DNA of 64,000 bases, taken from contig NZ_AUJQ01000008.1 of the NCBI RefSeq assembly GCF_000424305.1, positions 124,001 through 188,000 on the forward strand. The letters are read 5' to 3'. A program made the translations under genes and the position numbers. This document shows, piece by piece, positions 44,170 to 46,194 of the stretch (the first letter of the stretch is position 1; every line of letters begins with the position of its first letter). The notes under the pieces are model-generated. The model searched no databases. It was not told the DNA's origin and saw only the letters and a program-made list of their open reading frames with translations. The stretch comes from Pseudobutyrivibrio ruminis AD2017 (lineage in GTDB: Bacteria; Bacillota; Clostridia; Lachnospirales; Lachnospiraceae).

Positions 44170-44991
44170 TTATAAATAGTCATTTATTATTGCTGTTATA
44201 GCTTTCACACTTAACCCATCCGCCCCCGTTTCAAAGGTGTAAAGCAAATTCTTCCCATACTCATACCCAAGCTCTCTATATTTCTCAATCTTTCTTATTG
44301 CTGCTGTGGCATACTCTGGCTTGTCCATCATCCCAAAATGCTCGTAGAAATACGTCTTTCTAGTAGCCAGGTTGAGCAAAGCAAAATCCGGATGCAGCCC
44401 CTTTATATTTAACTCACAGCTCGGCTCATACACATATGGCACCTTCTCCTTCGCCAGCTTATCCGCAATTATCTTCTCCGACTTAGACCTAACATGCTCC
44501 CCATTATCCGTATAATACGGCGTCTCCACCGGATACCTCTCCTTAAACGCATTTCCCTCCTCCCCCGCGAAGGCCCCCTTCCAGTCATATATATATCTAG
44601 CATCGTCTTTGTATTTGCTGTCTACTAAAGCTTTTCTTGTGTCCGACAAACTGTTAAATAACGCTTTCCCGTCATACGCAGGATAGCTCTGTATCGCAAT
44701 TTCTAAGGCTGCAATTTGTTCATCTAGCATTTTCAATATTTGAAAATCAAAATCTCTTTGGGCTAATCTTCTAGCTATGCCTATATCTTCTTTCTTTATA
44801 AAGTTTCGCTGAACTTTTCCTCTTCCCCCGCCTTCCAGCATCTTGCACTTATAAAATTGCATGTACTTTCCTTTGTTCTTCTTAACTTCTAAGAAATAGC
44901 CATCATCATTTGGGTACAGCTTCTCCAATAATGCCTTTTCATGTTTAAGTTTTGCCAACTCCTTGTTCATAATGTCTTTAAAATCAATCAA
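44170..44991 (-). CDS. Unrecognised protein with PD-(D/E)XK nuclease-like C-terminus
   Basis: 273 residues from a TTG start (44989-44991) with AAGGAGG seven bases before. The first 110 residues are Lys/Glu-rich and look like a coiled coil with a basic patch (GGGRGKVQRNF). The C-terminal half contains HVRSKSEKIIADKL, a PDF motif (GLHPDFALLN) and a following YFYEHFGMMDKPEY strand, the spacing of a PD-(D/E)XK-type nuclease fold with Glu/Asp/Glu, although the usual lysine is not apparent. I do not know its function. It lies next to the tandem repeat array; no terminator is evident downstream. Confidence 0.75.
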   Translation of the reverse strand: MIDFKDIMNKELAKLKHEKALLEKLYPNDDGYFLEVKKNKGKYMQFYKCKMLEGGGRGKVQRNFIKKEDIGIARRLAQRDFDFQILKMLDEQIAALEIAIQSYPAYDGKALFNSLSDTRKALVDSKYKDDARYIYDWKGAFAGEEGNAFKERYPVETPYYTDNGEHVRSKSEKIIADKLAKEKVPYVYEPSCELNIKGLHPDFALLNLATRKTYFYEHFGMMDKPEYATAAIRKIEKYRELGYEYGKNLLYTFETGADGLSVKAITAIINDYL

Positions 44992-45022
44992 TCTTTTGCC
45001 TCCTTAATCAACAAATCTCTGC

Positions 45023-45287
45023 ATTACCACTAGTAGCGCACTAATACGCATCCGCTAGTGGTACAAATTTCGACTTTTACCACTAGCACAATCAGATATA
45101 GCATTTACTAGTGGTACACTTTCCTAGCTTTACCACTAGCGATTAACTAATAACCGTTTACTAGTGGTAATGCTCCTGTTTTTTACCACTACCAACTACG
45201 TAAATAGCATTTGCTAGTGGTAATCACCAAATTCCTTACCTCTACCGCCTCCCCAAATAGCCCGAGCTAGTGGTAAAGGCCCTACGC
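45023..45287. repeat. Tandem array of five 53-bp inverted-repeat units
   Basis: Units begin at 45023, 45076, 45129, 45182 and 45235, exactly 53 bp apart. Each has a left arm TTTACCACTAG (first unit ATTACC; fifth degenerate), an interior of about 20 bp that ends near AATAGCATTT in several units, a right arm CTAGTGGTA(A), and a spacer of 12-13 bp. Arms are inverted copies of each other and are far more conserved than interior or spacer. Fifty-three bp is close to five helical turns. A solo unit lies at 18465-18504. The array is in the 583-bp gap between the nuclease-like gene and tRNA-Leu. Confidence 0.9.
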
Positions 45288-45311
45288 AGGTTCAAGTCCT
45301 GTCACCCGCAT
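45286..45311 (+). repeat. Inverted 26-bp copy of the tRNA-Leu 3' end
   Basis: This plus-strand segment is identical over 26 bp to the T-arm, acceptor 3' strand and first flanking base of tRNA-Leu (45574-45599, minus strand). A 7-bp CTAGTGG match continues upstream within the last array unit, but the rest of a tRNA is missing, so it is a fragment. The two copies face each other about 290 bp apart. Attachment sites often copy tRNA 3' ends, but direct orientation would be expected for excision. Confidence 0.85.
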
Positions 45312-45364
45312 ACAGAAAAATGTCAGCTCCTTTCCCTATAAATATTCCTCTGTTCCCCTGCCAT

Positions 45365-45533
45365 CGCTAAAAAAGCGTAGCAAAATAAACCTTATCAGCT
45401 TAGTTGCACTCTAAGTGATACGGTACGTCCAACTTACCATGAAAAATGCTATCGAATTGATAGCTATAAGAATGTTTAGCCTAACTAGAAAAGTGTAGGC
45501 AAATTATAAAAAGATTTCCCCGGTCTTTTATAA
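45365..45533. other. Hairpin-rich non-coding block
   Basis: Five successive inverted repeats: CGCT/AGCG (45365-45377), TATCA-CTTAG/CTAAG-TGATA (45393-45420), GCTATC/GATAGC (45448-45464), GCCTA/TAGGC (45479-45500) and TTATAAAAAGA/TCTTTTATAA (45504-45533). There is no reading frame of note. It lies between the tRNA fragment and the tRNA-Leu terminator. It may be a structured RNA or the remains of a mobile element. Confidence 0.45.
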
Positions 45534-45541
45534 CTATAAAC

Positions 45542-45571
45542 AAAAAAACTCACATACGTAACGTATGTGAG
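45542..45571 (-). terminator. Terminator after tRNA-Leu
   Basis: Perfect 11-bp stem CTCACATACGT/ACGTATGTGAG, with seven T following on the minus strand. Confidence 0.93.
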
Positions 45572-45574
45572 TAA

Positions 45575-45654
45575 TGCGGGTGACAGGACTTGAACCTGCA
45601 CGGTCGCCCACTAGAACCTAAATCTAGCGCGTCTGCCAATTCCGCCACACCCGC
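45575..45654 (-). tRNA. tRNA-Leu (anticodon TAG)
   Basis: 80-nt tRNA: acceptor GCGGGTG/CACCCGC with discriminator A, D-arm region GCGGAATTGGCAGACGC, anticodon stem CTAGA/TCTAG with loop TTTAGGT (anticodon TAG, reads CUA and likely other CUN codons), an 11-nt variable arm and the T-arm GCAGG-TTCAAGT-CCTGT. CCA is not encoded. It has its own promoter and a terminator. Confidence 0.96.
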
Positions 45655-45714
45655 GTAAAATCAAGGTTTCGATTAAAAAATCTACCGCCTCGAGTCGGCT
45701 CATCGACCTCAAAT

Positions 45715-45743
45715 AATATATCATAATCCCCATTTAAAAGCAA
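45715..45743 (-). promoter_or_regulatory. Predicted tRNA-Leu promoter
   Basis: On the minus strand: -35 TTGCTT (45738-45743), 17-bp spacer, -10 TATATT (45715-45720), immediately downstream of the ATP synthase terminator. Confidence 0.55.
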
Positions 45744-45773
45744 CAAAAAACTGCCAAAAACTTGGCAGTTTTT
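45744..45773 (-). terminator. Terminator of the ATP synthase operon
   Basis: Stem AAAAACTGCCAA/TTGGCAGTTTTT, followed on the minus strand by a T-run; it starts 7 bp past the atpC stop. Confidence 0.92.
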
Positions 45774-45780
45774 CTATTAA

Positions 45781-46194
45781 TTATTTATGCTGACTCGCAC
45801 CTTTAAGTCGAGCCATAGCGCGGGCCATATTAGCAATTGACATCTGGTGTTCGATATAGCTTTGCTTCTGCTGTAATGCATCCTGAGCACGCTCTAAAGC
45901 TTCCTGAGCTCTGAACGTATCGATGTCTTCTGGCTTCTCGCAAGAATATGCAAGAATCTTGACACCGCCGTCAGGATATACTGAAAGCAAGCCATCCGAA
46001 ATGATTGCATGCTGCCAGGTCCCATCTTCAAGCTTGAAGCGAATCTCACCGATGTCTACCACACCAGTCATCTTTTCGTGATGATTCATGATAGCTATTT
46101 CACCATCATCTGCTGGGTAGATAAGCATTTCGCTTGGTCCATCGTAAAAGACTCCGTCGCAAGCTACTATTTTAAGATTAAATAATGATGCCAT
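45781..46194 (-). CDS. atpC: ATP synthase F1 epsilon subunit
   Basis: 137 residues: an N-terminal beta-sandwich (FNLKIVACDGVFYDGPSEMLIYPADDGEIAI) and a C-terminal pair of helices (about 88-135; QEALERAQDALQQKQSY). The subunit couples rotation of gamma and c and can inhibit hydrolysis. It starts 3 bp after atpD; it is the last gene of the operon. Confidence 0.96.
   Translation of the reverse strand: MASLFNLKIVACDGVFYDGPSEMLIYPADDGEIAIMNHHEKMTGVVDIGEIRFKLEDGTWQHAIISDGLLSVYPDGGVKILAYSCEKPEDIDTFRAQEALERAQDALQQKQSYIEHQMSIANMARAMARLKGASQHK

Follow-up and report, generated by a model that had tools for sequence, protein, structure and literature searches.

The intergenic region between a tRNA-Leu gene and a 273-aa reading frame in Pseudobutyrivibrio ruminis AD2017 carries five inverted-repeat units at a constant distance from one another, within the 64,000-nucleotide stretch of DNA analyzed here (the window). 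The original prediction treated this array as a candidate undescribed element, which raises the question of whether it is a local peculiarity or one instance of a wider system, and which protein, if any, might use it. We searched the window, its genome and related genomes for similar units and for genes associated with them.

The five-unit array and its surroundings

The features of the locus are the following (window positions).
45024..45275, no strand assigned: array of five inverted-repeat units, each unit 40 bp, start-to-start distance 53 bp
45024-45063, 45077-45116, 45130-45169, 45183-45222 and 45236-45275: the units of the array, from the repeat search
44170..44991, minus strand: 273-aa partner gene, predicted helix, three-stranded sheet and long helix, followed by a predicted PD-(D/E)XK-type domain
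44998..45005, minus strand: Shine-Dalgarno-like AAGGAGGC, preceding the TTG start at 44991
45286..45311, plus strand: 26-nt inverted copy of the tRNA-Leu 3' end, abutting the array
45575..45654, minus strand: tRNA-Leu (TAG), the syntenic anchor of the locus

The repeat search returned spacings of 53, 53, 53 and 53 bp, which bears out the exact periodicity described originally, with unit starts from 45024 onward, one base after those first given. In a five-unit scan of the intergenic region, period 53 yielded 19 identical columns, whereas 300 shuffles never gave more than 5; the array was missing from the TRF output. All five units keep the right arm, CTAGTGGTA. Units 1-3 have TTACCACTAG as their left arm, unit 4 has TTACCACTAC and unit 5 has TTACCTCTAC, and these left-arm changes make unit 5 the most worn of the array. 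The leading third T of the arm as first given is absent from some units. Unit centres are TATT- or TATA-like. The last arm of the array lies 32 bp from the TTG start of the 273-aa gene, and a promoter scan around the array found one weak site, on the other strand, with a score below the shuffled mean.

The 26-nt tRNA-Leu piece has similar counterparts in loci L033, L035, L036, L037 and L039 and is absent from L034, L038, L007 and L012; since only some orthologous loci contain it, it probably lies outside the system. A tRNA attachment-site remnant was rejected as an explanation, because the piece is inverted and restricted to these orthologues. Between tRNA-Leu and the array there is a hairpin, GCTATCA-n-TCGATAGC, with a T-run (window 45448-45464, minus strand), whose form is kept in the orthologous loci read and in genome G021, which lacks the gene at this site. 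In genome G014 (L227), an integrase-like reading frame adjoins tRNA-Leu by reading of the sequence, so the tRNA is probably also an integration site. Here and below, the gene names purN, purD, acetyltransferase, folC, comEC-like and integrase are readings of translations, unlike those of the S58 peptidase, the GntR regulator and the tRNAs.

Sequence, predicted fold and distribution of the adjoining protein family

No Pfam family scores above cut-off for the 273-aa protein, and NCBIfam and PHROGs give no match. Among 28 aligned family members, weak Pfam matches are scattered, each to a single member, and Pfam detected neither a Y1 transposase nor a ParB domain in the window protein or these members. 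Two parts stand out in the 273-aa protein, a three-stranded sheet at about residues 32-64 and a PD-(D/E)XK-type domain at about residues 160-273. An AlphaFold model of residues 140-273 (pLDDT 91.0, pTM 0.83) orders its helices (H) and strands (E) as H31-42 E47-49 H54-57 E64-67 E74-80 H86-101 E110-114, and this predicted arrangement contains the alpha-beta-beta-beta-alpha-beta core of the PD-(D/E)XK superfamily. The best PDB match of the C-terminal domain in Foldseek was Sulfolobus Hjc (probability 0.94, E 0.022, TM 0.37), with DrdV, MunI, XisH and FAN1 below it, restriction-type folds among them, and nothing at E <= 0.001. The N-terminus is modelled as a helix, three strands and a long helix, with residues 11-50 and 61-100 scoring 80-91 and residues 51-60 scoring 63. 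The full-length model is poor (pLDDT 61.7), and a PDB search with it returned nothing useful.

Residues E172, D202, E217 and H218 are invariant in 28/28 aligned members, so that the acidic active-site residues of the superfamily (E, D, E) are conserved. The lysine of the (D/E)XK motif is absent from the family, where the motif reads E-H-x-G. Other proteins of the superfamily are known to carry variants of this lysine, so we claim the fold and not catalysis. A PD-DEXK model of PADLOC matches 20 of the 28 members (best E 4.8e-7), and the PADLOC model PDC-S68 matches the C-terminal domain in all 28, with E 1.5e-23 for the window protein. T7 endonuclease I was matched weakly by one profile (E 0.011), a match that a domain-only profile did not reproduce.

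The family is multicopy and widely distributed. The window genome contains nine of its genes and other genomes up to 11; it is present in 28 of 29 genus genomes (window genome included) and in 32 of 61 genomes of the relatives set, and the eight named relatives comprise seven Pseudobutyrivibrio and one uncultured Lachnospiraceae. Across sampled genomes of the same taxonomic family, the 28-member profile finds matches at E <= 1e-10 in 64 of 200, which belong to 63 of 199 genera; in a few of these only the C-terminal domain or a fragment is matched. At the order level, 37 of 246 genomes match at E <= 1e-30, 16 of them in a second family, f8. No upstream array was found in the eight f8 loci scanned (L267, L271, L273, L276-L279 and L281), two others (L272 and L280) being too short for the scan. 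Phage records gave three matches, one covering 82% at 28.8%, plasmids gave two partial ones, and eight viral contigs match the family in its C-terminal part only. A phage or plasmid origin was rejected on account of these few matches and the restriction of the viral contigs to the C-terminal part.

Arrays upstream of family genes

A periodic array precedes the gene in 73 of 158 distinct regions, or 84 of 174 before identical loci were merged, some genes having been fetched twice. The threshold was at least 13 identical columns in four units, which we relied on because 12 columns equals the highest shuffled value. The 174 loci are those with enough unmasked sequence (3 more were masked out); they are best matches, mostly from one genus, and not a random sample. 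In 66 of the 73 arrays, the conserved columns contain inverted 7-mers matching at 6 or 7 positions (41 at 7), compared with a shuffled mean best of 4.4; the remaining seven lack clear inverted arms by this automatic test. At the threshold used, 85 of the 158 distinct loci have no array. Eight of the nine paralogues in the window genome were examined: three pass the period scan (L004, L042 and L043), three show repeated inverted motifs by eye or in an inverted-repeat scan (L041, L044 and L046), and two have no array (L045 and L047). The gene thus does not always need one.

At a lower threshold of 12 columns, 69 of 135 loci are periodic upstream and 19 downstream. The downstream cases include second arrays in L043, L072, L080, L086, L111, L112 and L138; in other downstream stretches the period is, for example, 30-48 or 87-92, and these may have nothing to do with the arrays. 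Taken together, an upstream array is a general, though not constant, feature of the family.

Helical quantisation of unit periods

A period close to five helical turns had been put forward as meaningful for the window array, and the family as a whole upholds this view. The periods of the 73 distinct arrays fall at 51-54 bp (54 arrays), 56 (1), 61-64 (7), 73-75 (10) and 84 (1), and thus at 5, 6, 7 and 8 turns of 10.5 bp. For 36 proteins under 50% identical, with one array each, the Rayleigh test gave R = 0.866 (p about 2e-12); p was about 4e-5 with periods of 50-55 excluded (n = 15) and about 7e-4 under the strictest clustering (single linkage, nine clusters with an array). These period tests use no hand-chosen arm strings. 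In 42 hand-specified arrays, the 250 spacings between units are 51 (12), 52 (135), 53 (85), 54 (16) and 104 bp (2), and none lies at 47-50 or 55-58, a range that the filter let through.

Exceptions to whole turns are one array at 56 bp, one at 61 and one 50-bp step in L181; the lower threshold adds arrays at 71 and 90 bp. A 42-bp (4-turn) step occurs in one solo array and in its copy. The distance between half-sites within a unit differs between families of arrays, so it is the unit period that is phase-locked and not every arm.

Arm specificity and the protein tree

Arm words differ from paralogue to paralogue and include TTACCACTAG, TACTATCT, TTACAGTG, TGCTATAA, GACACG, GTGTATGGG, GTGCGTGC and more. 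In the protein tree, which we used as a leaf order, 14 TACCACT proteins stand together, as do 12 proteins of the TACTATCT/TACTACCT locus, among which L127 has other arms. The GACACG/GCACG proteins are likewise grouped, and so are the TTACAGTG proteins. Arm similarity correlates with the identity of sheet residues 29-66 at r = 0.60, a value reached by 0 of 2000 permutations, and with that of the nuclease domain at 0.52, the long helix at 0.42, the linker at 0.42 and the N-terminal coil at 0.04. For 508 distant pairs, the correlations are 0.19 for the sheet, 0.06 for the nuclease domain and -0.14 for the coil. The sheet, where the correlation is strongest, is therefore likely to be the arm reader, a correlation being no proof.

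Gene and arms also occur together. All 14 genus genomes that have the tRNA-Leu-locus gene contain TACCACT units, a count that takes in the gene's own array, compared with 1 of the 15 without the gene (p = 2e-7). The exception is G021, from which gene and array are both absent at the tRNA-Leu site; this genome keeps TACCACTG arrays at four other sites without the tRNA-Leu-locus gene. Since the family often has upstream arrays whose arms track the protein tree, the adjoining 273-aa gene is an obvious candidate partner of the window array, contrary to the earlier statement that no protein in the window was known to use it.

Constraint, strand symmetry and unit interiors

Pairing between arms was counted on the gene strand of the 42 arrays, giving 2299 Watson-Crick pairs, 65 G-U, 63 A-C and 136 other. 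Selection on RNA should favour G-U over A-C, and the two are about equally frequent, so what is preserved is not pairing in RNA; the symmetry of the arms is shown at the level of DNA. In 11 orthologous array pairs, differences amount to 16/1039 positions in arms, 106/1174 in interiors and 43/633 in spacers (Fisher p about 1e-15), and arms thus diverge about six times more slowly than interiors. Flanks differ at 337/2465 positions, a figure swollen by two pairs with poorly matching flanks. A twelfth pair, L035/L036 (arms 2/234, interiors 47/273, spacers 33/156), was not added to the total, since a register shift in the alignment of its 13-unit arrays is possible. Arm strings for the 42 arrays, the 11 pairs, the solo loci and the mosaics were chosen by hand, an ascertainment that favours arms somewhat.

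The contrast first noted between conserved arms and diverged interiors is thus real, but the view of the interiors as mere drift is not supported: most arrays have a central A-tract. Interiors are purine-rich on the gene strand in 42/42 arrays, with 72-82% A at the centre; the window array is one of four among the 42 in which A does not exceed T. Of the tandem solo loci, 13 of 13 have an A-tract whose polarity matches transcription (they represent about 10 independent sites, and the directions of their flanks were entered by hand), and the two unit types of one mosaic array have opposite polarity on one strand. Replication-strand composition as the sole cause of this polarity was rejected on these two grounds.

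Dispersed, solo and mosaic arrays

The exact arm pair of the window array, TACCACTAG n17-25 CTAGTGGTA, occurs in three units of the window genome, all inside this array, and near forms make up a six-unit TACCACTG array on another contig and a single unit at a third site. TACCACTG is found in 14 of the 29 genus genomes and TACTATCT pairs in 12 (three with a single match), the latter numbering 30 units at eleven places in the window genome, two of which flank the gene. Reversed-pattern controls gave no match in the 29 genus genomes. Further copies beyond the window, for which the original prediction had proposed a search, are thus present as dispersed arrays and units in genome and genus, and numbers of matching units vary widely among genus genomes.

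At twenty fetched loci, multi-unit arrays are intergenic and lie between tandem, divergent and convergent genes; the exceptions are overlaps with short or doubtful reading frames and with 29 bp of one reading-frame start. A single unit within a reading frame in L194 is probably a chance match. In 53 of 1800 locus searches (3%), scrambled arms still produced at least three units in register, perhaps because the scramble came close to a true arm. In the window genome, seven of the nine solo arrays checked contain exactly six main-type units. Solo arrays between convergent genes do not fit a promoter operator, and such an operator as the only role was rejected from L178, L186/L189 and the single-unit L182, all located between convergent genes.

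Unit types can change within a site. At one intergenic site in four close species, TACCACT and TACTATCT-type units occur as 1+6, 4+1, 6+1 and 0+6, so that types are swapped among species while the adjacent 561 bp are 97-99% identical. A survey of this site in 20 genomes found the array absent from 15 more distant ones, and one contig ends there. A 12-unit array in G018 combines four TACCACTG units with eight TACTAT/CC units, all in one 52-bp register apart from a first step of 51; identity of interior plus spacer is 0.14-0.43 across the join, compared with up to 1.00 among the later units. The step at a type change is 52 bp in L346 and G025 and 64 bp in G000 and G018. L346 itself (1766-2388) is a twelve-unit mosaic of two arm families in a 52-bp register, with opposite A-tract polarity.

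Duplication and retention are both seen. Two 274-bp array copies in the window genome, 238 kb apart, are 96% identical, with no target-site duplication visible by eye, and L043 has arrays on both sides of its gene that are 87% identical over 329 bp. Many arrays are retained at orthologous sites. The purN-purD region contains arrays in five species (L029, L193, L338, L343 and L344), G021 included, and in L193 and L344 the contig ends there. TACCACT-type arrays precede an acetyltransferase-like gene in L051 and L059, and L060 has the same kind of array.

A proposed cooperative binding platform and its rivals

The linkage of array and gene, the match of arms to protein clades, the whole-turn periods, the DNA-level symmetry, the conservation of arms, the dispersal and the mosaics lead us to propose, with a probability of about 0.6, that the arrays are cooperative DNA-binding platforms of their cognate nuclease-fold proteins, probably autoregulatory at the gene itself. 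Two inverted half-sites flanking an AT-rich centre would make each unit a dyad, and each half-site would be read by the N-terminal beta-sheet of the cognate protein. Spacing of units by whole turns would place the bound molecules on one face of the DNA, touching each other. At the gene's own array, the outcome would most likely be cooperative autorepression or dosage control, and at dispersed arrays without a gene, more nucleoprotein blocks would be assembled by the same proteins. Nicking or resolution of DNA inside the units is a probable activity of the PD-(D/E)XK domain and would account for array expansion, contraction and in-register mosaics; the resolvase-like fold and the turnover of arrays suggest that the protein may also cut or resolve units. 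We infer binding, cooperativity, autoregulation and cleavage from these patterns, autoregulation from the position of the array only.

The strongest competitor, in our view unlikely, is a selfish system in the manner of REPtrons, with a nuclease that mobilises or expands its own units and dispersed arrays that are non-autonomous and serve no host function. Such a system would account for arrays without a gene, the near-identical 274-bp copies far apart in one genome, the arrays on both sides of some genes (as in L043), the replacement of unit types at a site whose adjacent 561 bp hardly differ, and the joint absence of gene and array from the tRNA-Leu site of G021, and the Hjc-like fold and weak T7 endonuclease I resemblance would suit it. 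Mobility alone, however, predicts neither whole-turn periods nor placement in front of the gene, the 274-bp copies have no target-site duplication visible by eye, and many arrays stay at orthologous sites. REPs may be selfish copies that exist for TnpA_REP, according to extracts of PMC8266576, and the dispersed arrays could be likewise; the platform view and the selfish-copy view are compatible. It is rather improbable that the arrays are chromosome-structuring or segregation-like sites, which would organise or insulate the chromosome much as sopC-type repeats organise a partition complex. Tandem inverted-repeat units found between gene pairs of every orientation (tandem, divergent and convergent), and heterotypic arrays that stay in register, are in keeping with this idea, as is the F-plasmid centromere, which consists of twelve 43-bp tandem repeats with inverted motifs (extracts of PMC6238139); the protein nevertheless has no ParB-type domain by Pfam, and unit numbers differ widely between genus genomes. 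Neither a ParA-type ATPase gene nor a cognate methyltransferase gene, as in type II restriction-modification, was recognised on reading the ORF list for 40-50 kb, of which three proteins were profile-searched.

We consider it quite improbable that the arrays hold or tune an anti-phage nuclease that shares its catalytic domain with candidate defence proteins. The PDC-S68 match in all 28 members speaks for such a device, yet these models are about 1200 aa long and only their last 120 or so residues are similar, no defence neighbours were recognised in the ORF list around the window gene, and the tRNA-Leu copy, with its conserved synteny, does not resemble a defence island. A CRISPR array was rejected, because conservation is confined to the 9-11-bp arms and in many arrays entire units are duplicates that have drifted; no cas gene was recognised in the ORF list of the window gene's flanks. 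An RNA-level element, in which each unit is a hairpin acting within a long 5' leader, gains something from the closeness of the array to the start codon, where it may be transcribed, and from the purine-rich interiors on the gene strand, but is very improbable given 65 G-U against 63 A-C arm mismatches, periods that RNA would not predict, and the finding that no Rfam family except tRNA reaches its gathering score in window 44900-45800. Diverging interiors and a variable number of units are what a functionless local satellite would show; arms about six-fold more conserved than interiors and an architecture shared by unrelated arm families across genera leave this reading scarcely credible. As a satellite of a single locus, it was rejected by the dispersal, the arm conservation and the recurrence of the same architecture with other arms.

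Relation to known systems

Known systems share single aspects of this arrangement. In REPtrons, TnpA_REP/RAYT proteins and their cognate REP palindromes co-evolve, with many copies in the genome (extracts of PMC8266576); a dedicated nuclease-like protein, family-specific palindromic repeats and dispersed cognate palindromes are likewise found here. In contrast, the REPtron protein is an HuH (Y1) transposase, whereas the family has a predicted PD-(D/E)XK fold and no Y1 domain was found in it by Pfam, and REPs are processed as single-stranded hairpins, whereas arrays here usually comprise 4-14 tandem units at whole helical turns, often before the gene. The sopC/parS-ParB (SopB) system of the F plasmid resembles the arrays in its fixed-period tandem repeats, inverted motifs and DNA-binding protein (extracts of PMC6238139), but has a 43-bp period, a ParB family protein with a ParA partner and the role of a plasmid centromere, whereas here no ParB domain was found and there are many loci with many specificities.

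PDC-S68 of PADLOC has a C-terminal PD-(D/E)XK-type domain homologous to that of the family, in models of about 1200 aa with another N-terminal part. The junction resolvases Hjc and T7 endonuclease I share the PD-(D/E)XK core; the family differs in an extra N-terminal sheet and helix and in lacking the motif lysine, and we know of no sequence-specific array for these resolvases. Cooperative operators and plasmid iterons also place repeated, helically phased sites close to the gene for the protein that binds them. They involve different proteins, however, and are not one gene family with a separate arm for each paralogue and dispersed mosaic arrays.

No published description of such arrays was found in the open-licence literature, subscription papers and preprints being outside this scope, which agrees with the initial view of an undescribed element. 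The window array is one example of this widespread bacterial arrangement. Even odds seem right to us for the wider proposition that this is a new kind of chromosomal nucleoprotein platform, in which a PD-(D/E)XK-fold multigene family of the Lachnospiraceae would use paralogue-specific, fast-changing half-sites in whole-turn arrays, both at its own genes and scattered, to form heterotypic filaments with a common phase.

The analysis links a large, unannotated family of proteins to a large class of intergenic DNA and supplies dozens of natural protein/half-site pairs with diverged specificity. The helical quantisation is a rare sign, visible in sequence alone, of contact between proteins along DNA. 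If binding is true, many naturally distinct binders and phased arrays would be on offer, and one could test what benefit a bacterium draws from having some ten nuclease-fold genes with a separate set of sites for each.
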